IMG/VR virus record: IMGVR_UViG_3300028610_000406
Coordinates: 1-27,564 of that record
Direction: 5' to 3' (one strand)
Source of the DNA: a virus
DNA: 27,564 bases
A model generated the notes under the pieces. That model had not been told where the DNA came from. It saw only the letters and a list, made by a program, of their open reading frames with translations, and searched no databases. The translations under genes were made by a program, and so were the position numbers. Of this stretch, positions 5,055-21,951 are shown in pieces; within the stretch, counting starts at the first letter, position 1, and each line of letters opens with the position of its first letter.

Positions 5055-6599
5055 TTAAAAAAATCCTCCACTTGCTGAAACTGTCATCACAAATGCACTA
5101 CCTGACCCCGTAAAACTTCCCGCGGTTAATCCTTGGTCAGTTCCAGATGCAGCATGAAATGGATTAACTGGTGGAATAAATCCTGTAGAATATATATGCC
5201 AAGCACTACCAGTTACAGTGTTTTCTTTAACTTCCCAATAAGAACCAACTACACTAAATTCCTCTGAAACAGTTTCTAATCTAGTAATCACATCTGATTC
5301 ACTTCGGTCTGCTTCTTCTATCGCATTTAGTCTTGAACGTAAGTCTGTTATTTGGTCTGTAATGTCTGTAATCTTTTTATCTAATCTTACTTGGATTACC
5401 TTTTCAGATTGAACACTATTTTTATTAAAAGTATATGTTGCATTTAAGATTCCGACGTCTTCATCTATATCAAAGTCTGAAAGTGTTACTTTTGCAGTTT
5501 GACCTGGAGTAATAGGGTGCCATCCTTTTACTTCACATTCTACTCCCTTAAATGGATCTGAATCTTCTAACTCTTTTGTTAGAACTGCTGATGCTGTATT
5601 TGGGTCAGAGATAGATTTGTCGTTTATTATTCTTTCTTTCTTTCCAAAAAGATTTATACTGTTTTGGTCTTTTCCAAATTTAACGATTGGAATATCTCTA
5701 TCATAAGTAGCTAAACCACTTTCTCCACTTGGCGGGATAGAACTATATCCTACGTCTGTACCTGATACGAATATTATTTCTTTATCATGATAACTTACTA
5801 GATAATCTGTACCACTTGTAGGGATGTCGGTTAATTCAAAGACTCCACCTTTTTGTGGGACCCCCGTTACTTCTATTAATGTATTTCTTGGTTTAGATAA
5901 TAATGTGTAAACTGACCCTCCATCAAATACTATTTCTTCTTGGAATCCTGCCAACATTCTGTCACCATATACAAAAACAAAATTAGTCATTCCTTCACGA
6001 GTTTCATTTAATATTGCTTTATTTATATTTGTATTATCAAACGTGATTCCACTACTCACATTTTCTCTTTCTTTAAAATGTAAATCTCTATCTTCATCTA
6101 CATAGAAAAAGAAACCTGCTAATTTAGCTAATTGTTGTAATGCTTTAAACACAGGAGTATGATTAAATACAATTCGTTTTAATGTTGTGCCTGTTACATC
6201 CACATTGTTTGTAGTAATATCAGAAACATTCTCTCGAATAATACTCTTAACTATGTCCCTTATTTCGTCATTTGTGAATACTGTTGGTTCCACTGTTGCG
6301 TCTTGCAACCTTAAACTATAATCTCTTCCGATTAAATCTACTTTTTGGGTGGATTCTTTCCCGTTGAATTGTATCTTTTCTAATATTCCAGTTAATAGTT
6401 TTGTAGTTCCATCTGAATCGTCTGCGCGGATTATTACTTCTTGACCGACTGAAAAGTCAGTTGCATGTTTACCAAAAGGAGAATCATATTCTATTTTAAA
6501 TGTACTTGAAGAATTATAATCACTTATTGATTTTTGTACCTTGCAGTGCCGATAATCATTAAATACGTTCCCACCAACTGTAACTTTTGTGGTTATCAT
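5055..6599 (-). CDS. Tail hub protein, GPD / gp27-like
   Basis: A 514-residue protein resembling the late-control D (GPD) family of baseplate hub proteins, which cap the tail tube and form the ring from which fibres and spike hang. Visible evidence: a beta-barrel-like N-terminus with VGQEVIIRADD near residue 52 and the typical GILEKIQFNGKEST and DLIGRDYSLRLQDATV segments near residues 70-100. A helical insert EIRDIVKSIIRENV follows, then FKALQQLAKLAGFFFYVDEDRDLHF near residue 150. All are characteristic of GPD-like hubs. Residues about 405-440 (ITDITDQITDLRSRLNAIEE) form a coiled coil, and a Gly/Ser-rich tail ends the protein. The start overlaps the tape-measure stop by 4 bases (ATGA), as expected for tail genes in order. 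Confidence 0.85.
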   Translation of the reverse strand: MITTKVTVGGNVFNDYRHCKVQKSISDYNSSSTFKIEYDSPFGKHATDFSVGQEVIIRADDSDGTTKLLTGILEKIQFNGKESTQKVDLIGRDYSLRLQDATVEPTVFTNDEIRDIVKSIIRENVSDITTNNVDVTGTTLKRIVFNHTPVFKALQQLAKLAGFFFYVDEDRDLHFKERENVSSGITFDNTNINKAILNETREGMTNFVFVYGDRMLAGFQEEIVFDGGSVYTLLSKPRNTLIEVTGVPQKGGVFELTDIPTSGTDYLVSYHDKEIIFVSGTDVGYSSIPPSGESGLATYDRDIPIVKFGKDQNSINLFGKKERIINDKSISDPNTASAVLTKELEDSDPFKGVECEVKGWHPITPGQTAKVTLSDFDIDEDVGILNATYTFNKNSVQSEKVIQVRLDKKITDITDQITDLRSRLNAIEEADRSESDVITRLETVSEEFSVVGSYWEVKENTVTGSAWHIYSTGFIPPVNPFHAASGTDQGLTAGSFTGSGSAFVMTVSASGGFF

Positions 6600-8239
6600 A
6601 GACTTACCTTATTGTTTAGTTCATCTGCTAATGAACGAGAAACATCCTCTGGGTCCATGCCGACGACGTTCTCAATGTTTACTGTAGTTCCTTGACGATT
6701 ATTAGATATTCCTGGTTCAACACCAAAGTCAAACTTTAATAAATCTGATTTAAACTTACTTGCATCAATTTTTGGGATAAGTGGAATCCTTACTCCAGGA
6801 ATTTTATTCATGGCCTTAATCAAGAAATTAATTTTGCCGAGAATAAAGTTTATGCTTCCTGCAATTATATCAACAACTTTATTCCAAACGATAATTGCAA
6901 CATTCCCAAAACTAATCATTGCATTTTTAAATCCTAACCAAAGATTTTCCCAAGTTCCAATCATTTTTGAAAGATTTTTTACTCCTACGATTATCCCTGC
7001 GATTGCCAAAGAGATAGCTAACAAAAGAAATAACCAAGGAGACGCAACTAAAGTCAAGATGGCTACTGCTGCCCCCAATAAAAACACTGCCGCAGTAACT
7101 AATGCAATTACAGCTATTAGTTCTTTAATTGGGTCTGGTAAATCACTAAACCATTCAAACACACCTTTTAATCCTTCTACTAAAGGAATTAAAACTGGTA
7201 TAAAAACTTCTGCAATTTCTAATTGTAATGCTGCAAAAGAATTCTTCATTAGTTTGATTTTATTTGCTGTACTTTCACTTGCGATTGCATACTCTTCTTG
7301 AAGTGATGTTGCATTTTCAAATTGTCCAGCTGCCGCCTCAATTAATCTATTCATCTCTGGGAGATTATTAGATAATTTGTTAATTGCTGAGGCTCCAACC
7401 GTTCCAAAGACATCAATAGCTTTTTGTTGTCGTTCTATTGGGTCTTCTATCTGTGAGATTCTTTTAATAAGAGAAAGTATCGCGGTGTTCGCATTTTCTC
7501 TGATGGCTCTTGGGAAATCTTTACCCATTAAAGGGATAACTTCATCCTCCATTTTTTTAACTACTTGGTCAAAGGCACTTCTTAATTTTGTACCTGCTCT
7601 CTCTGCTGGTTCACCTGCTGCAATTAATGCTGCAGTTAATCCAGCAACAACTTCAGTAGATAGTCCTAATGTTTTTGCTGAACCTGCTACTCGGACCATG
7701 GAGCTTACAATTTCACTTGAACTTGCAGCACTTATATTAGATAATTCGTTAATTGCAGAACCTAACTTTTCTGCCTCCTCAATAGGCAATCCCATAGCAT
7801 TAGAAATCTTTGCCATTGCTAAAGCTGCCTCTTCTGCGCTTAATTCTGTGGCGATGGCCATTTTACCTACGACGGTAGTGAAACTCTTAATATTTTCAGT
7901 TCCAACTATACCTAATTGACCAGCGACTTCTCCTATCTGTGCTAATTCGACTACACTCAAAGGCATAGTCTTAGATAAATCTATAAACTCTTGGCGAAGT
8001 CCTTTTATTGCTTCTGCGGATAGTCCAGTAGTTTTACGAACTCCTACCATTGCTGTCTCTAACTCTATTGATTTATCTATTGCTTTTTTTAATCCAAAAG
8101 CTATGGCTCCACCTATTGCACCCATTGCTAAAGCAGATTTTCTAAAGCTCTGCATGGATAACCCTGCTTTCTTAAATGCTCCTGAGAACTGATCTCTTGC
8201 CCTTATTACAATCTCTACGACGTTTTGTCCGAATGCCAT
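6596..8239 (-). CDS. Tail tape measure protein (TP901 type)
   Basis: A 547-residue tail-length determinant that occupies the tail lumen. The N-terminus (VEIVIRARDQFSGAFKKAG) is typical of tape measures. Residues about 60-290 match the TP901 core in style, with ELETAMVGVRKTTGLSAEAI, an ELAQIGEVAGQLGI repeat and a GEPAERAGTKLRSAFDQV segment. Residues about 365-420 are hydrophobic, with two adjacent membrane-like segments (VIALVTAAVFLLGAAVAILT and LFLLLAISLAIAGIIVG), common in tape measures that contact the cell membrane. If the usual 0.15 nm per residue applies, the tail would be near 80 nm, which is short. The ATG overlaps the stop of the frameshifted chaperone (TAATG). Confidence 0.92.
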   Translation of the reverse strand: MAFGQNVVEIVIRARDQFSGAFKKAGLSMQSFRKSALAMGAIGGAIAFGLKKAIDKSIELETAMVGVRKTTGLSAEAIKGLRQEFIDLSKTMPLSVVELAQIGEVAGQLGIVGTENIKSFTTVVGKMAIATELSAEEAALAMAKISNAMGLPIEEAEKLGSAINELSNISAASSSEIVSSMVRVAGSAKTLGLSTEVVAGLTAALIAAGEPAERAGTKLRSAFDQVVKKMEDEVIPLMGKDFPRAIRENANTAILSLIKRISQIEDPIERQQKAIDVFGTVGASAINKLSNNLPEMNRLIEAAAGQFENATSLQEEYAIASESTANKIKLMKNSFAALQLEIAEVFIPVLIPLVEGLKGVFEWFSDLPDPIKELIAVIALVTAAVFLLGAAVAILTLVASPWLFLLLAISLAIAGIIVGVKNLSKMIGTWENLWLGFKNAMISFGNVAIIVWNKVVDIIAGSINFILGKINFLIKAMNKIPGVRIPLIPKIDASKFKSDLLKFDFGVEPGISNNRQGTTVNIENVVGMDPEDVSRSLADELNNKVSL

Positions 8240-8630
8240 TATTTCTTTTTAGCTTTGTTGGCTGCCTTTTTGTTTTCTCTATTGACCTTCTTCAAATATT
8301 TAACTATTTCCATGTAATCAAATAATGATAAATCTCTGACTACTGGTAATGTCCATTTGAAGTAGTCACAAATAGCCAACTCATTCTTTACTGAGTTGGC
8401 GTTTGAAAATCCTCAGAAATATTATTGATTTTGTTTACTAACTTCATTAAATCTATTCCTAAAGACATTCCAATATTGTCATACTCTTCATCAGTTATTC
8501 CAGTAGATAGTTGTAACAGTCTTTTAGCGGATTCTGCTTTACTTAAATCTTGCAACTCTGCAACATCTTTGTACTTCAGTTCCGAAACTGTATAAGTCTT
8601 TCCTTCTATTTCCAATGTTTCTTTTTTCAT
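8239..8630 (-). CDS. Tail assembly chaperone, -1 frameshift product (gpGT-like)
   Basis: Reading 75 codons of the 80-residue frame and then slipping -1 at GGATTTT (8406-8412) gives a 130-residue protein. The appended 55 residues are SNANSVKNELAICDYFKW followed by a segment with LPVVRDLSLFDYMEIV, and end in a basic KKAANKAKKK tail. In lambda and most siphoviruses the gene pair just before the tape measure makes gpG and, by -1 frameshift, gpGT, which chaperones the tape measure. Gene position, size of both halves and a lysine-rich end fit this closely. The -1 frame ends in TAATG overlapping the tape-measure ATG, as expected if the extension is translated. There is no ATG-started frame that could express this segment alone. 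Confidence 0.85.
8375..8412 (-). promoter_or_regulatory. -1 frameshift cassette: slippery heptamer plus stem-loop
   Basis: On the minus strand the heptamer G GAT TTT (8406-8412, in frame) is followed by a 5-base spacer CAAAC (8401-8405). Next comes a perfect 9-bp stem GCCAACTCA / TGAGTTGGC (8375-8400) with an 8-base loop that contains the zero-frame stop. GGAUUUU is, from memory, the slippery heptamer of dianthoviruses such as red clover necrotic mosaic virus. The -1 frame is closed by TGA just upstream of the heptamer, so the slip can only happen at or after this site. Confidence 0.85.
8388..8630 (-). CDS. Tail assembly chaperone, short form (gpG-like)
   Basis: An 80-residue protein beginning MKKETLEIEGKTYTVSELKY, the zero-frame product of the chaperone gene. 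The opening (a short beta segment with a YTVSELKYKDVAELQDLSK helix) is typical of phage tail chaperones that resemble lambda gpG or the DUF-type tail assembly proteins. AGGAGG lies 8 bases before the ATG. Its TAA stop (8388-8390) lies inside the loop of the frameshift-stimulating hairpin. The gene lies between tail tube and tape measure, the conserved location. The short form normally greatly outnumbers the fusion and coats the tape measure during tail assembly. Confidence 0.85.
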   Translation of the reverse strand: MKKETLEIEGKTYTVSELKYKDVAELQDLSKAESAKRLLQLSTGITDEEYDNIGMSLGIDLMKLVNKINNISEDFQTPTQ

Positions 8631-8690: not shown

Positions 8691-9701
8691 TTAAAATGCT
8701 GCGTAAACTACTCTGTCGAATGCTGAGCCGATTACAAATTGTGGTTTGATTTCCATAGTAACTTCACTTGGACCTTCTGTAGTAGAAGGAATCTCCATAC
8801 TCGTTATTCTACATCCACTCAAAAAGAATATTGTATGTTGAGATCCTGCTGTGACATCTGCGTCTAAGTCAAATGTTGTATCGAATACTCCATTACCTTT
8901 GAATAAATCCGTATAAAGTGTATCTGCTAAAGGTGCACTTAGGTCTGCGGTTACGTTTAAAGTATATTCCTTATTACCTGGGAATGGTGCTGCGATTACT
9001 CGACTACCATTTAAATAGTGTGGTGCTTCTGTGTTGTTAACTATCTCGAAACTAATATCTTTTGCAGTTTCGATTGTATTACCTGACATTGTCAACGTAC
9101 AATCACTCCAAAGATATGGTCTATTCGTTGCTTCGGATGGTGTTGTGGTTGTTGCACCAGACGTATGAGTTAAACTCTGTCCGATGTAATTAACATCCAT
9201 ACTAACTTTTTCACCTTGAACTGCATTAATAGTTACACTATCAACAACTGCTCCTTTGATTGTTCGGATGAAATTAGCTCCAGTACCGGGACTCTGTTTA
9301 GAATCTTCGATTTGAAAACTAATAGGTGCTTGAAGTCTACCTGTTCCACTTGTGAACGGACTTTGCCATGCACTTGTAGATGTTTCTTCAGCTAAATGAG
9401 TAACTTTTGATCCTGCGGCCCCATCTGCCCCTGAACCAATTGCCCAAAAGGCGAATCTCATATCTTGTGGATGCATAGTTAAAGTACCTGTCACGTCGTT
9501 TGGTCCTTGGTCCATGTCTCCATAACTTCGATTATTTGTTCCTAAGAATCTATTAGTTATTTTGTTTTCTTTGTCGTCGATTAGATTCTCCATTACTTCT
9601 CCTGGCCAAAAAGATGATCCAGTTGCATCACTTTGTGTTCCGTAAGTACCTGACTCATGAAATATTACTACCTTGTTTGTATCTGAAATGTATCTTGCGA
9701 T
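8691..9701 (-). CDS. Major tail tube protein, no standard start codon
   Basis: This is the tube-forming protein of the siphovirus tail. The part after the first ATG (9593) has 300 residues: a FLGTNNRSYGDMDQGPNDV segment, a PFTSGTGRLQAPISF strand region, VDSVTINAVQGEKVSMDVNY and a C-terminal SMEIPSTTEGPSEVTMEIK region, typical of tube proteins. The same frame remains open and plainly coding upstream (ARYISDTNKVVIFHESGTYG, then SFWPGEV), which looks like the true N-terminus, yet contains no ATG, GTG or TTG. A perfect GGAGGT (9708-9713) sits 6 bases before the ATC at 9701, giving 336 residues if ATC initiates. Alternatives are -1 slippage on the A7 run from ATG 9715, or one base missing from that run in the sequence. 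Identity is secure, the start is not. Confidence 0.82.
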   Translation of the reverse strand: MARYISDTNKVVIFHESGTYGTQSDATGSSFWPGEVMENLIDDKENKITNRFLGTNNRSYGDMDQGPNDVTGTLTMHPQDMRFAFWAIGSGADGAAGSKVTHLAEETSTSAWQSPFTSGTGRLQAPISFQIEDSKQSPGTGANFIRTIKGAVVDSVTINAVQGEKVSMDVNYIGQSLTHTSGATTTTPSEATNRPYLWSDCTLTMSGNTIETAKDISFEIVNNTEAPHYLNGSRVIAAPFPGNKEYTLNVTADLSAPLADTLYTDLFKGNGVFDTTFDLDADVTAGSQHTIFFLSGCRITSMEIPSTTEGPSEVTMEIKPQFVIGSAFDRVVYAAF

Positions 9702-11060: not shown

Positions 11061-11398
11061 TATGCGTTATCGTAATCCGGATTTATTTTAACTACTAGTG
11101 AATTGTCTGATGGAAGAGTTAAAATACTACTATCCTCAAATGTAGTTGTAAATTCACCCAAGAATAAACCAGATCTATTCGTATTTGCCTCTGTCCAATT
11201 ATATTGAAGATTGCCTGTTGTACTGCCAGTTATAGTAGCATTACCAGAAAATACTGGGGTAAATGCATTATCGTTTGTACTTAGTTTAAAGAATATATTA
11301 GATCCAGTTGATAAGTCTATTGGACTACCATTACTATCAACAAGTTTAACCGCTAAACTTGGTTCTGTACTATTTCTCTTTATTTCAAATATTGCCAT
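11060..11398 (-). CDS. BppU-N / Ig-like accessory virion protein
   Basis: A 112-residue beta protein: MAIFEIKRNSTEPSLAVKLV, then GSPIDLSTGSNIFFKLST near residues 23-40, FSGNATITGSTTGNLQYNW near 50-70 and a terminal strand with LTLPSDNSLVVKINPDY. This strand order, with the intrinsic GNLQYNWT..(N)..GLFLGEF pattern, is that of the Ig-like N-terminal domain seen in lactococcal phage baseplate protein BppU and in many phage proteins that fix fibres to virions. It lies directly after the large repeat adhesin in the transcript (TAATG overlap) and may anchor it. The assignment is moderate. Confidence 0.65.
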   Translation of the reverse strand: MAIFEIKRNSTEPSLAVKLVDSNGSPIDLSTGSNIFFKLSTNDNAFTPVFSGNATITGSTTGNLQYNWTEANTNRSGLFLGEFTTTFEDSSILTLPSDNSLVVKINPDYDNA

Positions 11399-13719
11399 TA
11401 TTTAATTATAAAATCGCCTCCTTTTCTTAATTTAATTACTTTGTCGTTTTCTACTAGCTGGTTGTTGAATGATGTTTCTCCTAATCTAAACACCTCTAGT
11501 ACTATATTTATCATTTTTAATAAGGTATCTACTAAGTCATCTGTGAATGTTATATTGTCTGCTAATAATATATTTAAAGTTAATGTTCTGGCTAGACTAT
11601 CTGTTATATTTTGAGTATCTGAGAAGGTTCTATTAAACGTTGATGTTTTACTTAATGAATCAGATAATGTTTGGGTGTCTGAAAAGGTTTTGTTAAAACT
11701 ACTTACGTTAGCTAGACTATCACTTAAGTTTATTGTATCGTCTAATGAAAAATTAAATTCAGTTACGTCAATTAAACTATCTGTTATATTTTGAGTGTCC
11801 AAGAAAGTTCGGTTAAATATCGACTGTTTGGCTAGACTGTCTGATAAAGACATTGTTTCACTTAAACTAATAGCAACTCCAAAAAAATCAACTAGGGAAT
11901 CAGAAAAAGTAATGTTATCATCTAATGCTACATTAAATCCAGTAACTGCAGCTAAACTATCAGAGAAATTAATGTTTTCGGCTAATGTCTTGTTGAATAC
12001 AATATCCCTACCTAATGCATCAGAGAAGGTTATTGAATCATCTAATGTTTTATTGAAAACTACATTCTTAGCTAGACTATCTGTAAATGTAATAGAATCA
12101 TCAAGAATTACATTAAATCCCGCATCTGCAGCTAGAATATCAGATAACGACAGGGAATCATCAAGAACTTTAATAAATACAGAAAAATTAACAAGATTGT
12201 CCGTAAAAGTAACATTGTCATCAAGTATTATATTAAATCTTTGAGAGTCCAAAATACTGTCAGCTAATGTAATAGAATCATCTAACTCTCTACTAAAAGA
12301 CGCTGAACTAACTAGATTGTCTGTTATGTTTAATGTCTCAAATAACTCCTCAATGAAGATAATGTCTTGATTTTCTAAAGCAATCTTATCGCCGTTTTCT
12401 TGTAGTAAAAAATCTCCGTTTTCTTGTAGTAAAAAAGCTGTATACTCTTTATCTACCCCTAGGAAATCTGTAAATGTTATTGAGTCGTCTAGTGCTATTG
12501 TTCTATCTCCCGTAACTGTTAGACTATCTGAAAAAGAAATAGAGTCAGACGGAGTTTCTGTAAAATCTTGACTTCCAGCCGCTATTTCAATATCATTAAC
12601 TAGATTTACAAATATATCTATTAAATCATCATTATACCAAGACCACTGGATTCTCCCACCGGAATTTGTAATAGTTCTTCCACCATGTAATGAACGATTA
12701 TCGTCGGTAGTTTCACTATATGCTGCTTCGCTTCCCCATGTACCCATCCCATCATCTGATTTATGAAATACTAAATCAACTAAAGATGGGAAAGTTCCGC
12801 CTTTTTGATAAGCAACATAAACATCATCATTTTGTTGATTTATGATAATGGCCGCCTTTCCCGATTCTCCTTGATTTGTAAATATATTTGTTTTTGCAGT
12901 TACTGTGGGGGATGAAATAGAATCGGGTGTTATGTCCCAAGTCAATAAATCATCACCAGCATCGTCGTCATCGGTATGTGATGCGATTAATATATGATTA
13001 TCACTTAATCTTAACGAGGCATCCATATTTATTGCGAACTCATCCGAGGTTATTCCAGTTGATACTGTAGTCTCAGTAATTGAATTTTCAGAATCATCAT
13101 ACATTTTTATAGATATTGTACTTGAACTTATGTCTAAATATACCCCCGCTACATCGTCATCGTCACCAGTATTAGATGGAAATAATAGTAGCCAATCTCT
13201 ATCTGCAAACCCCGTTCCTTCGTAGAAATCTGTCCTACTTGTCCAATTTTCTCCGGAGTCTATACTCTTATATGTTTCTATTTCTCCGGGGGTCATAAAA
13301 GCGACTATTAAATTCCCACTTACTGTTTTAGTTATCGCTACTTTATTCTCTGCGGTGTCTCCTATAGTTAATCCACTATCTATCGTTCTAATCGTTCCCA
13401 CTGAAGCATCACTTACATCTACAGTTACGTATTTAACTTCACTGTCCGCTGCATCTGTCCAGATTATGTGTACTAGTGTTCCAGAATTTCCAGGGGTTTC
13501 CTTATCAAACCATGCGGCTATGGCTGTATGTGTTCCCGCCTCTATTTGAGTGACTGACCAATTTGCCCCACCATTTGTAGTTCTTGCAAAAGAAATATCG
13601 TTTCCAGAATCCGCAAAAACTATTATTGCAGTCTGTGTATCAATCCAGTAAGGTCCCCACGGTGCAGGTGTTGATTCTGCATTGTTACTCACAGATGTTG
13701 CTACTGCTGTATCAGCCAT
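11398..13719 (-). CDS. Sialidase-like propeller plus 20-residue repeat adhesin
   Basis: A 773-residue protein. Residues 1-390 resemble a BNR beta-propeller with three Asp-box-like motifs (TTNGGANW, SIDSGENW, SDDGMGTW), so it may bind or cut glycans, though no catalytic set can be assigned. From about residue 391 come repeats of 20 residues with the frame L-D-D-S-I-T-F-S-D-S-L; fourteen are contiguous at residues 459-738. Between the second and third units is a short tandem LLQENGDF. A different C-terminal domain of about 35 residues ends in RKGGDFIIK. AAGGAG lies upstream of the ATG, which overlaps the previous gene by 8 bases. Its location between capsid and neck genes suggests a head or collar fibre. 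Confidence 0.75.
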   Translation of the reverse strand: MADTAVATSVSNNAESTPAPWGPYWIDTQTAIIVFADSGNDISFARTTNGGANWSVTQIEAGTHTAIAAWFDKETPGNSGTLVHIIWTDAADSEVKYVTVDVSDASVGTIRTIDSGLTIGDTAENKVAITKTVSGNLIVAFMTPGEIETYKSIDSGENWTSRTDFYEGTGFADRDWLLLFPSNTGDDDDVAGVYLDISSSTISIKMYDDSENSITETTVSTGITSDEFAINMDASLRLSDNHILIASHTDDDDAGDDLLTWDITPDSISSPTVTAKTNIFTNQGESGKAAIIINQQNDDVYVAYQKGGTFPSLVDLVFHKSDDGMGTWGSEAAYSETTDDNRSLHGGRTITNSGGRIQWSWYNDDLIDIFVNLVNDIEIAAGSQDFTETPSDSISFSDSLTVTGDRTIALDDSITFTDFLGVDKEYTAFLLQENGDFLLQENGDKIALENQDIIFIEELFETLNITDNLVSSASFSRELDDSITLADSILDSQRFNIILDDNVTFTDNLVNFSVFIKVLDDSLSLSDILAADAGFNVILDDSITFTDSLAKNVVFNKTLDDSITFSDALGRDIVFNKTLAENINFSDSLAAVTGFNVALDDNITFSDSLVDFFGVAISLSETMSLSDSLAKQSIFNRTFLDTQNITDSLIDVTEFNFSLDDTINLSDSLANVSSFNKTFSDTQTLSDSLSKTSTFNRTFSDTQNITDSLARTLTLNILLADNITFTDDLVDTLLKMINIVLEVFRLGETSFNNQLVENDKVIKLRKGGDFIIK
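11506..12345 (-). repeat. Fourteen contiguous 60-bp coding repeats
   Basis: The repeats encode fourteen units of exactly 20 residues with the frame L-D-D-[SN]-[ILV]-x-[FL]-[ST]-D-[SN]-L, then about nine variable residues. Units are diverged in DNA but not in length, so the spacing is kept by selection. The two earlier, separate units lie just upstream in the same gene. Confidence 0.85.
12392..12434 (-). repeat. Short tandem coding repeat LLQENGDF
   Basis: The plus strand reads CCGTTTTCTTGTAGTAAAAAA twice within 43 bases. On the minus strand it encodes LLQENGDF followed by LLQENGDK. The copies are nearly identical, so the duplication looks recent. It sits between the second and third 20-residue repeats. 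Confidence 0.8.
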
Positions 13720-14797: not shown

Positions 14798-14874
14798 ATT
14801 AACCTCACATAATCAAATATTCTATCCCCCAAACTTCTGTGTGGAAAAAAGAAATGAAATATTTTTCTAATCAT
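14788..14874 (-). CDS. Candidate 28-residue peptide bridging two virion genes
   Basis: A tiny frame, MIRKIFHFFFPHRSLGDRIF and eight more residues, starts at 14874 and overlaps the upstream stop as ATGA. It ends with TGA at 14788, inside the beginning of the LamG gene. The gap it fills is 73 bases. It is basic and aromatic. No ribosome binding site is evident, and conservation is unknown, so it could be only a translational bridge. Confidence 0.3.
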   Translation of the reverse strand: MIRKIFHFFFPHRSLGDRIFDYVRLIWR

Positions 14875-15578
14875 GCTGTATATTGCACATAAATAGTACC
14901 AACAGGAAATCCAGAGGCAGCTGGGGGTGTATCGTCGGTGTTATACAAAACCATCGGCACATAAGCAGCATCAGCAGAACTTCTATCTCCTGTGACAGTT
15001 AATCCTTCAGTAACTATACTACCAGTTGAACTATCATTTGCGTTATTTAGTAAATAGTCTGTATGTGCTTGTGTATTATCTGCCTGATGTGTTGCTCCTG
15101 CACCCGATACTGCGACACCCGCACCTGAAACTGTTACTAAATTAGCAATATCTGTTACAAGTGCACCAGAAACAACTACTCCAGCGCCACTTACTGTAAC
15201 TAGGTTTGCAATGTCAGAAACCAACGCTCCACTTACTGCTACCCCCGCACCTGATACCGTTACAAGATTAGCTATATCTGCTACCAACGCTCCAGAAGTA
15301 GCAACATAGGCCCCAGAAACGGCTACTCCCGCACCTGAAACTGTGGTTAGATTATTTTTATTAGTAACAGTTGCTCCAGAAACTACTACACCGGCTCCGC
15401 TTACGGTAGTTAGATTTGATATATCAGTAACTAATGCACCTGATATGGTTAAATTAGTTTCAAAATTATCAAAAGTTACTTTTTTCGTTAAGGTTGAACC
15501 TATTGAGGCAAAAGGAAAGACATCAATTCCTGATATACCTACGGCTGCATCAAGTTCACTTATTTTATTATCAACCAT
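14871..15578 (-). CDS. Heptad-repeat fibre-like virion protein
   Basis: A 235-residue protein. Residues 1-45 (MVDNKISELDAAVGISGIDV and on) resemble short attachment domains of phage fibres. Residues 46-157 contain five copies of a 21-residue unit of the form SGALV.DI.NLVTVSGAGV.V. A single seven-residue unit (SGAYVAT) sits between the second and third copies. Residues 158-235 form a C-terminal domain with a TVTGDRSSADAAYVPM segment. The precise 7-residue register indicates a regular fibre, either a trimeric coil or a beta-helix, with the end domain possibly binding the host. It overlaps the upstream stop as TAATG and lies in the adhesin block downstream of the capsid gene. Confidence 0.75.
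   Translation of the reverse strand: MVDNKISELDAAVGISGIDVFPFASIGSTLTKKVTFDNFETNLTISGALVTDISNLTTVSGAGVVVSGATVTNKNNLTTVSGAGVAVSGAYVATSGALVADIANLVTVSGAGVAVSGALVSDIANLVTVSGAGVVVSGALVTDIANLVTVSGAGVAVSGAGATHQADNTQAHTDYLLNNANDSSTGSIVTEGLTVTGDRSSADAAYVPMVLYNTDDTPPAASGFPVGTIYVQYTA
15108..15443 (-). repeat. Five 63-bp coding repeats plus one 21-bp partial unit
   Basis: These encode 21-residue fibre units, each three heptads long. The lone 7-residue insert between units two and three keeps the heptad frame, so length changes have been by exact heptads. Unit DNA has diverged by synonymous changes. Confidence 0.85.
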
Positions 15579-19823: not shown

Positions 19824-19975
19824 CCTTCTAAAAATGCCTTCTGATTTAATTTTATTTGTTTCATTTTATATTCGTGAATACATTGACCACAAATCCATAA
19901 TCCATTAAGTAATGATATTGCACGCCTTTCTTCACACTTAGCACAGAAAGGAATATTAGAATCAGTTAGTTGCAT
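19820..19975 (-). CDS. Zinc-ribbon protein, 51 residues
   Basis: A 51-residue protein with two CxxC pairs (Cys11, 14, 29, 32 counted from the ATG at 19975) that would hold one zinc ion: FCAKCEERRAIS and WICGQCIHEY. The start at 19975 is chosen because it overlaps the portal stop as TGATG; an earlier in-frame ATG at 20002 would add nine residues inside the portal gene. Small zinc ribbons are frequent in archaeal viruses and often act in DNA or protein contacts. The place right after the portal is unusual, so it may aid capsid assembly or packaging, but this is inference. Confidence 0.75.
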   Translation of the reverse strand: MQLTDSNIPFCAKCEERRAISLLNGLWICGQCIHEYKMKQIKLNQKAFLEG

Positions 19976-21951
19976 CAGTCTACTAACCCGACCATACTGC
20001 ATCTACACATACTATGGGCTGGAGGCATGTTTAGGCCGGCTAGACCTTCTCTTGTTTCAAATACTTGTCCGTCTAGTGCTTCACAGATAGGACAAGTCCT
20101 TTCGTCTAAAGCAGTTAGCCACCTATAAGATTTAATTTCATTTTCAAGATATAAATCTTTTAATCCTTGGTTTGCTAATCTGACTGTTTCTGTTCTGGCA
20201 ATATTGATTGGTCTTTTATCTGCAGAAAGTGTTAATTTTTTTACTCCATCTTCGTCGAATCTTACTCTATCTTTTAAGTTAATAGATCTACTTATGTCTC
20301 TCTCTATTTGTGTGATTGTTTTGTTCTTTCGGAAACCGTCTTTTAGGATAACCTTTAATTTGTTTACGTCTCTTTGGGGGAGTAATCCTTCGATTAATTG
20401 TTGTTCTGTGGTAGCGAGTAGTTCTTCGAATTTGTCTATTCGCAGGTTTCGTAGTATTTTGACTAAGTAATCTGAATAGTTAAAGCCTGCTAATTCTTTT
20501 ACGTTAATATATTGAGATAACTTCATGTTACCTTTCTCTGCATCTGTTAGGATAGGTTTACATTTGTGGACTAGGGTGACTTTTGCTTTTTGTTTGGCAG
20601 TTTTTTTAGCACCAGGTACTTCTGGTTGTTTGATTTTCTCCTCGTTCTTTCTGGCTAAGTCTTCTTGCTTTTTGAATTCTGCTTCTTCGGCATCTAATTT
20701 TTTACGGGCTTCTTCTGGAGTGGGTAACTTATCGACGACATCTAGTTCCATTATCTCTGCATATTCTATTTCTAGTGCGGCTCTTAGTTCTGGAGATAAA
20801 TCCATTAGTTTTAATGTTTCTTTGACGATTGCTAATCTAGCAAGTTTTTCTTCTTCGCCTGGGAGTTCCCAAATAAACTCAACCTTATTGTCTAGCTTGG
20901 GGGAGTTATTTCTTAAGACGGGTCTAAGAATTTGGTCTTCTACTATCTCTTCGATTAATGTTCTAAGTGAGTGAATGAATCTTAACCAACCCTTATCGTT
21001 TACTTTAGCGAGACCTTCTGGGTTGTTTGCTACTCCGATTAGACTCATTGGAATCTTCATTGCTATGGCTAATTGTTCTAAATCGTGTTCTGCAGACTTA
21101 GTTAAATTATCTCCTATTCCTGCGAAATCGATTAATGTCATTTCTACGTTTGAATCAGTTACCCACTCAGTAGAATTGTTCATAAATTGTAAGTCTGATT
21201 TGAATGAATCCATATCGGCTTTTTTTACTTTTTGACCAGGTTGTCCTAACTTTACATGAATTGGTGCTCCTGCTTTTCGGCTTAATAGTTTGTGTCTATC
21301 TAATTCAGAACCGGCATAGTTTTCAATTGTTACTCTACTTGACCAAAGTAATCCTCGTCCGTATGGATCTCCAGGTGTTTTGTTTATTGTCAAATGAGCG
21401 ATTTGTTTAGGTTTAAATGGAATTGGTTTTTTGGTCGAATCAAATAACTTTAGTTTCTTTTTGAATTGATTGTATTCGATTACTTTTCCTTTCTTTGTTC
21501 GTTTGACATACATATCGTTAGCATTTAGAACTCTTAATTTGTCAATATTCTTCATATCTTCTAGGTCTAATTCCATGTAACCGTTTCCCTTAGAGACAGC
21601 CTCTTTAATCCATGGTCTTAGTTTTGATTTGAAGTTTGTGTCGTCTATGAATCCATCTAGAACTGCTTGGGCATTTTCGTCTTTGGTTTTAACATCAAAA
21701 TCTCCGACTATTGCATCGGCTATTTTGTCGACCATTGCTTCGGCTATTCCAATATTATCAAGAATTTTATCTACTTGACAGAAATTGAATGGATGTTGTG
21801 CGCCTAATCCTTTTGGGAATCTTATTTGGATGTCATCGGTTTCTCCCTTAAATGCCTCAGCTATGATACTCTGTCTGTTCGCGTATTCTTCCTTAGTTAC
21901 CGCCAAATAACAAGTTACCTCTTTTTCCCCTTCTTTAGACTTAAGTTTCAC
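19975..21951 (-). CDS. Portal protein fused to Mu F-type minor head protein
   Basis: A 658-residue protein. The N-terminal 400 residues resemble phage portal proteins that form the DNA entry ring: FNFCQVDKILDNIGIAEAMV near residue 57, DPYGRGLLWSSRVTIEN near residue 195, then AIAMKIPMSLIGVANNPEG near residue 295. Residues about 415-455 are a charged, Lys/Glu-rich linker. Residues about 480-658 carry the Mu gpF / SPP1 gp7 pattern: RPINIARTETVRLANQGLKD, then LDERTCPICEALDGQVFETR and MPPAHSMCRCSMVGLVD with Cys and His. The start codon is GTG 29 bases after a TATA box (leaderless). Portal and Mu F genes are often adjacent but separate; here they are one reading frame. Confidence 0.88.
   Translation of the reverse strand: MKLKSKEGEKEVTCYLAVTKEEYANRQSIIAEAFKGETDDIQIRFPKGLGAQHPFNFCQVDKILDNIGIAEAMVDKIADAIVGDFDVKTKDENAQAVLDGFIDDTNFKSKLRPWIKEAVSKGNGYMELDLEDMKNIDKLRVLNANDMYVKRTKKGKVIEYNQFKKKLKLFDSTKKPIPFKPKQIAHLTINKTPGDPYGRGLLWSSRVTIENYAGSELDRHKLLSRKAGAPIHVKLGQPGQKVKKADMDSFKSDLQFMNNSTEWVTDSNVEMTLIDFAGIGDNLTKSAEHDLEQLAIAMKIPMSLIGVANNPEGLAKVNDKGWLRFIHSLRTLIEEIVEDQILRPVLRNNSPKLDNKVEFIWELPGEEEKLARLAIVKETLKLMDLSPELRAALEIEYAEIMELDVVDKLPTPEEARKKLDAEEAEFKKQEDLARKNEEKIKQPEVPGAKKTAKQKAKVTLVHKCKPILTDAEKGNMKLSQYINVKELAGFNYSDYLVKILRNLRIDKFEELLATTEQQLIEGLLPQRDVNKLKVILKDGFRKNKTITQIERDISRSINLKDRVRFDEDGVKKLTLSADKRPINIARTETVRLANQGLKDLYLENEIKSYRWLTALDERTCPICEALDGQVFETREGLAGLNMPPAHSMCRCSMVGLVD

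Follow-up and report, generated by a model that had tools for sequence, protein, structure and literature searches.

The 27,564-nucleotide (nt) stretch of viral DNA analysed in this study (IMGVR_UViG_3300028610_000406, in the following termed the window) contains a tail assembly chaperone gene that very likely employs a programmed −1 ribosomal frameshift to produce a pair of proteins of the lambda G/GT type, as judged from its sequence and that of its relatives. Across 44 distinct versions of this gene, the 5′ arm of a presumed stimulatory stem has probably remained fixed 4–8 nt behind a conserved U_UUU slip site, with its 3′ arm having moved among three sites within the shifted open reading frame (ORF), the most distal of which would imply a long-range helix enclosing at least about 100 nt of coding RNA. 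Since the 3′ arm is located within the shifted ORF and the start of the tape-measure gene at its stop, a single RNA element may set both the ratio of the two chaperones and the output of the tape measure. The genes of the cassette are all encoded on the minus strand and comprise the following features:

8388–8630, minus strand: zero-frame tail assembly chaperone, G-like, 80 amino acids (aa), an ORF with stop TAA at 8390–8388 and the Shine-Dalgarno (SD) sequence AGGAGG upstream.
8413–8415, minus strand: TGA closing the −1 frame directly upstream of the slip site.
8406–8412, minus strand: slip site G_GAT_TTT with conserved core U_UUU and the Phe codon in the A site, defined from the sequence and its relatives.
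8401–8405, minus strand: 5-nt spacer CAAAC.
8375–8400, minus strand: presumed stimulatory hairpin with 5′ arm (8400–8392), loop (8391–8384) and 3′ arm (8383–8375).
8239–8412, minus strand: −1 frame ORF, T-like half, 57 codons with a lysine-rich end and stop TAA at 8241–8239, kept in 44/44 relatives.
6596–8239, minus strand: tail tape measure protein, start without SD match (phrog_28, expectation value (E) 7e-70; Pfam PhageMin_Tail).
8691–9593, minus strand: tail tube protein, upstream of the chaperone (Pfam Phage_tube_2, E 2e-18).

The chaperone gene is thus placed between genes whose phrog and Pfam matches identify them as tail tube and tape measure, which is the context of G/GT-type genes. 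Its zero frame ends in ...GAG GAT TTT CAA ACG CCA ACT CAG TAA, and the downstream region can fold into a perfect 9-base-pair (bp) stem consisting of GCCAACUCA (8400–8392) and UGAGUUGGC (8383–8375), whose 8-nt loop contains the zero-frame stop. With a folding energy of −15.4 kcal/mol (z −6.9, equalled by 0 of 200 shuffles), this hairpin is the lowest in energy among 27,537 segments of 27 nt on the minus strand. Perfect hairpins of at least 9 bp with loops of 3–12 nt are found twice in the whole window, compared to a mean of 1.0 in 20 shuffles, and the chance that one begins in a given 7-nt slot is about 0.0003. The −1 frame opens at 8412, directly behind the TGA, and its stop overlaps with the ATG of the tape measure in the sequence TAATG. 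A −1 slip on TTT is predicted to result in a product of 130 aa, 55 of which are new, with a lysine-rich end as it is found in lambda GT. An initial annotation of the window had described this cassette, with GGATTTT in register, a 5-base spacer, a 9-bp stem and the stop in its loop, and also the opening of the −1 ORF, its TAATG overlap and the lysine-rich fusion protein, and each of these features was recovered in our analysis.

To place these properties in a family context, scans of IMG/VR provided 49 contigs with this chaperone, of which 44 distinct sequences remained after omission of L056, which is truncated ahead of the slip site, and of L063, L073, L074 and L146, each of which repeats another member of the set. 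Among the 44, the window is represented by L041 (contig 3300009788_001437), because its tube, chaperone and tape measure proteins are identical. The chaperone gene has its second half in the −1 frame in each of the 44 sequences, and the ORF of this half ends in TAATG in 30 of them. The zero-frame TTT is preceded by T in 43/44, generating the sequence U_UUU, whereas the surrounding heptamer is variable. Nine heptamers are observed in total, including GGATTTT (16), AGATTTT (15), AAATTTT (4), CGATTTT, TGATTTT and AAGTTTT (2 each), and GAGTTTT, ATCTTTT and GGGGTTT (once each), with GAT (35), AAT (4), AGT (3), TCT (1) and GGG (1) as the codon ahead of TTT. The proposal that GGAUUUU, the heptamer of dianthoviruses, would constitute the signal had to be abandoned, as it is carried by only 16 of the 44 relatives, and the resemblance to plant RNA viruses is superficial, given that U_UUU is the unit that persists. 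The site in the window also deviates from a canonical X_XXY_YYZ heptamer, as GGA is not XXX. Four of the 44 sequences carry AAATTTT, and in four others (L058, L065, L072 and L143) T_TTT_TTR is on offer. It instead corresponds to a tetramer of the type Z_ZZN followed by a stimulator, with U_UUU present in 43/44 and a stem assigned in 41/44 sequences (in one of them weakly). TGA itself is the P-site codon of the −1 frame in L071 and L151 (T_GAT_TTT), which keeps this frame shut as far as that site, and L054 has its zero-frame stop immediately behind TTT. If these three sequences shift, the slip would be placed on UUU.

A comparable arrangement was observed in L017, L019, L020 and L021, whose tube is 79–81% identical, yet which contain a different chaperone module between tube and tape measure. 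In these modules, too, the second half occupies the −1 frame, with an A run ahead of it in which A_AAA_AAG or A_AAA_AAA is available, and it meets the following gene at TAATG or TAAATG. The arrangement thus persists where the module differs.

The 5′ arm of the presumed stem begins 4–8 nt after the slip site in all three classes that were distinguished by the position of the 3′ arm. In class I (14 sequences, including the window), the 3′ arm ends 30–47 nt downstream of the slip site, within the −1 ORF, and one of its members (L068) is weak with a stem of 6 bp. In class II (8 sequences) it ends at +65–71 nt and in class III (19 sequences) at +121–135 nt, in a site that mostly codes for K-L-E-A, and in classes II and III combined, 27 of the 44 sequences have a 3′ arm past 60 nt. 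Close relatives in class I show compensatory changes such as GCCAACUC/GAGUUGGC against GCCAGUUC/GAACUGGC, where the altered 3′ arm leaves the −1 frame protein the same (GAG TTG to GAA CTG, both encoding Glu-Leu). Arm pairs in class II include CCTCAAGA/TCTTGAGG, TCCCCAGAC/GTTTGGGGA and CCAGAGAC/GTCTCTGG, and those of class III CCTCTAACCG/CGGTTAGAGG, CCTCCAA/TTGGAGG, CCTCTAGA/TCTAGAGG and, with Lys in place of Glu, GCCTTTAAC/GTTAAAGGC. Six distinct sequences were found after the pattern had been recognized and five of these belong to class III, their stems measuring 6–9 bp, whereas the remaining one (L144) has no such stem. In classes II and III, folding of just the first 60 nt yields weak z-scores, and both had initially been suspected to lack a stimulator, a view that was overturned once the search was extended to +130, which revealed their stems. 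Similarly, RNAalifold returned no pairs for 24 regions outside class I cut at about +70, because class III partners beyond this position were removed and because the arms of class II do not align.

Several controls bear on the assignment of these arms. In a protein-preserving null, where synonymous codons downstream were resampled with the protein kept and the pairing of the 5′ arm was scored, pairing was better than the null mean in 43/44 sequences and reached p<0.05 in 20/44, the other 24 being not significant singly, with a Fisher combined p of 8e-17 that ignores kinship. A repeat with fewer samples gave similar values (42/44 below the mean, 19/44 with p<0.05, mean z −2.11), whereas six decoy arms, which were reversed, complemented, shuffled or taken from three upstream positions, yielded mean z values of −0.40 to 0.04 with p<0.05 in 1 to 4 of 44 sequences. 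When arms were swapped within class windows that had been chosen after the data had been seen, own arms were on average more stable than swapped ones (−15.7 vs −9.2 kcal/mol in class I, −14.6 vs −7.1 in class II and −12.5 vs −9.5 in class III), with a permutation p of 5e-5 per class, which is the floor of 20,000 permutations, and the own arm surpassed the mean swap in 14/14, 8/8 and 17/19 cases, respectively. Pair counts in class III (19 sequences) showed 87.0% of 161 cells paired compared to 81.9% in shuffles and 12 double-sided changes compared to 4.4. Corresponding values in class I (8 of its 14 sequences) were 95.8% of 72 cells compared to 88.5%, and 7 compared to 2.1. Class II stands outside these counts, as its arms failed to align by MAFFT. 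In class III, all 15 sequences with Glu at the respective position of the 3′ arm encode it by GAG, the remaining four carrying GGG, GGG, AAG and GAT, whereas 12 of the 13 sequences outside this class that contain the residue use GAA. The Fisher p of 4e-7 for this enrichment is inflated by kinship, and an independent-pairs test of the codon, with one pair on supported branches, had no power. Collectively, compensatory and synonymous changes, the protein-preserving null, arm swaps and decoys support a 3′ arm that occupies three sites.

In a tree built from the predicted fusion proteins, the classes cluster, and the best tree contains 7 changes among the three classes, or 10 if sequences without a stem are treated as a fourth group. 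The repeated origin of the classes suggested by these 7 changes was not upheld by approximately unbiased tests, which did not reject one origin per class (p 0.32, 0.24 and 0.30). The minimum number of 3′ arm moves required is two.

A number of observations weigh against a frameshift with such a stimulator, for which the evidence consists of sequence comparisons. The 44 sequences are related to each other, so that combined p values overstate the evidence, and the window considered alone reaches only p = 0.050 under the protein-preserving null. Two of the five pair-count measures could not be told clearly from shuffles, as the number of pairs with double-sided changes was as high in 41/500 shuffles for class III and in 181/500 for class I, and that of further pair types in 135/500 and 359/500. 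No convincing stem, and therefore no class, could be assigned to L054, L059 and L144. In L059, there is also no U_UUU (GGGGTTT, with the TTT codon at 2978) and TAATG is found at the zero-frame stop, and this sequence may have exchanged frameshifting for coupled reinitiation or a separate start. Finally, GGA should re-pair poorly with tRNA-Asp, which would render the efficiency of the shift uncertain.

The strongest of the alternatives, although itself improbable, regards the second half as an independent gene whose translation would begin by reinitiation or coupling where the zero frame stops, with the hairpin serving in termination-reinitiation. Overlapping stop/start junctions are frequent in the window and 13/44 sequences contain an ATG in frame close to this stop, which in some cases overlaps with it (L030, L046, L049, L059, L009), so that reinitiation could contribute there. 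However, between the opening of the −1 frame and a conserved IC motif, 31/44 sequences lack an ATG and 25/44 any ATG, GTG or TTG. In the window, the earliest of these codons in the −1 ORF is a TTG at 8379, inside the stem, and there is no ATG before 8313. Reinitiation would also leave unexplained why U_UUU is found in 43/44 sequences and why the position of the 5′ arm is set by the slip site while the distance from slip to stop varies between 0 and 33 nt. The initial annotation had named relatives with the second half as a separate, ATG-started gene as an argument against frameshifting. On this point, the second half is in the −1 frame in 44/44 sequences, but 13 of them have such an ATG near the stop, including L059 with its possible switch to a separate start. 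Transcriptional slippage on the T run, giving mRNAs in the other frame, appears highly improbable, since only L058, L065, L072 and L143 contain six consecutive T at the site, whereas the window and most of the 44 have four, and a covarying downstream stem would have no obvious role in polymerase slippage. A sequencing frameshift or a decaying gene combined with a chance hairpin, which a lone contig could not exclude, is equally improbable in light of the same arrangement in 44/44 sequences with both halves conserved and compensatory changes. Ribosomal frameshifting in the tail chaperone gene, as proposed initially, is thus strongly supported by conservation and covariation among relatives.

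From the −1 frame, the U_UUU site and the covarying stem found by sequence comparison, we infer how the element would operate in cells, including the mechanism and efficiency of the slip, the roles of both products and the coupling to the downstream gene. Most ribosomes would read the 80-codon zero frame and terminate at its TAA, which is located in the loop of the hairpin, whereas a minority would pause at GAU_UUU because of the hairpin that follows after 5 nt, with the stem positioned at the entry channel. The tRNA-Phe on UUU would then move back by one base onto the preceding U and, going from UUU to UUU, re-pair perfectly, and the slipped ribosomes would continue in the 55-codon −1 frame to yield the 130-aa fusion. 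By analogy to lambda, coating of the tape measure would be the task of the short form, and recruitment of the tube that of the long form. Ribosomes completing the fusion would reach TAATG at the SD-less start of the tape measure, whose translation is possibly coupled. SD matches of at least 5 nt are found at the chaperone start in 39/43 sequences and at the tape-measure start in 5/42, and the latter, with starts picked by a script, overlaps the stop of the −1 ORF in 37/42. Since this start lacks an SD match and overlaps the −1 stop, translation of the tape measure may depend on frameshifted ribosomes. The special character of the SD-less start is weakened by the fact that only 16 of 39 genes checked in the window have an SD match of at least 5 nt.

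The relationship of the two halves to proteins of lambda was judged by profile and fold libraries. Among 36 family members, the first half matches phrog_166 ('tail protein') in 20, phrog_14669 (unknown) in 12 and phrog_1442 ('tail assembly chaperone') in one case. Its AlphaFold model (predicted local distance difference test score (pLDDT) of 86.5) has the tail assembly chaperone of HK97 (2ob9) as top match in the PDB, although weakly (E 1.2, probability 0.38). In BFVD, it finds several named tail assembly chaperones with probabilities up to 1.00, none at E<=0.001, including those of Halobacterium phage ChaoS9 (rank 4, probability 1.00, template modelling score 0.69) and HCTV-1 (rank 48, probability 0.87). 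The second half is predicted as a three-helix domain (pLDDT 87.0), for which the fold search gave nothing informative. Neither half gave a credible hit when PDB sequences were searched with its profile.

The assignment of the window to a probable archaeal virus could not be confirmed. Its terminase is closest to phages of Flavobacterium and Cellulophaga, which are Bacteroidota phages (46%), its capsid matches only haloarchaeal HGTV-1 (two records, 29%, E 9e-7) and the matches of its tape measure are mixed phages. Family scans detected no domain-specific genes among the flanking-gene proteins scanned, and no relative was confirmed when 84,980 species genomes were scanned twice with pattern seeds. 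Blocks of glycosyltransferase genes are located in L081 (165–6754), a longer contig of the same virus, and in L086 (12042–17269) and L179 (1758–4798). Some of these blocks also contain epimerase, radical SAM or methyltransferase genes, and they do not provide a domain signal. Scans for tRNAs found a single tRNA-Ala(TGC) without encoded CCA in the related contig L086 (11976–12049), whose sequence could help to place the host, and further tRNA scans found none. Elsewhere in the window, a 658-aa ORF (19975–21951), whose N-terminal part matches portal proteins and whose C-terminal part matches Mu F-like minor head proteins, is likely a portal-MuF fusion. Two long ORFs (11398–13719 and 14871–15578) contain internal amino-acid repeats such as DDSITFTDSLA and VSGAGVAVSGALV and are perhaps fibre- or surface-binding proteins.

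If the proposed movement of the 3′ arm is correct, the 44 natural variants of one gene constitute a ready-made experiment, with a nearly invariant slip codon, the same position of the 5′ arm and three partner sites. They could be used to ask up to which distance the second half of a stem is able to stimulate slippage, and in what way an element of this kind evolves within coding sequence. In that case, scans that fold just a short stretch past the slip site could also miss signals, as 3′ arms are located beyond 60 nt in 27/44 sequences.

The system shares several features with lambda G/GT, where a chaperone gene ahead of the tape measure contains a −1 second half with the slip site G_GGA_AAG and a rarer long form (PMC5009743, PMC7618472). 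As in lambda, the long form is expected to be rarer, whereas the slip here occurs on U_UUU and a strong stem follows downstream. A −1 frameshift in the same gene was reported for the haloarchaeal tailed viruses HVTV-1 and HCTV-1, -2 and -5 (PMC8211752, PMC5009743) and proposed for the Hardycor1 chaperone (PMC7911831), so that an archaeal host, if there is one, would not make our virus the first such case. The same G_GAU_UUU serves as frameshift site in pea enation mosaic virus and some such RNA viruses rely on long-distance pairing (PMC5009743), although this concerns RNA genomes and eukaryotic ribosomes. In the IS3 family, stimulators following tetramer slip sites were defined as simple or branched hairpins of 17–140 nt starting 4–10 nt after the motif (PMC4066793), in transposase genes, whereas our case concerns one orthologous gene family with three alternative 3′ arm sites. 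The retention of U_UUU in 43/44 sequences fits the report that in Escherichia coli U_UU.U is prone to shifting in the presence of a strong downstream stimulator (PMC4066793). The backward slip motif 'twoonefour' listed by PRFect (PMC10885494) would, in our own reading of its name, fit GGATTTT. In the open-licence literature searched, with most subscription papers outside its scope, we found no account of tail-chaperone genes with a stem whose 3′ arm is distal or able to move. The single case of the window is thus ordinary, since frameshifting of the G/GT type is known, archaeal viruses included, whereas the movable 3′ arm would represent a new variation on it.
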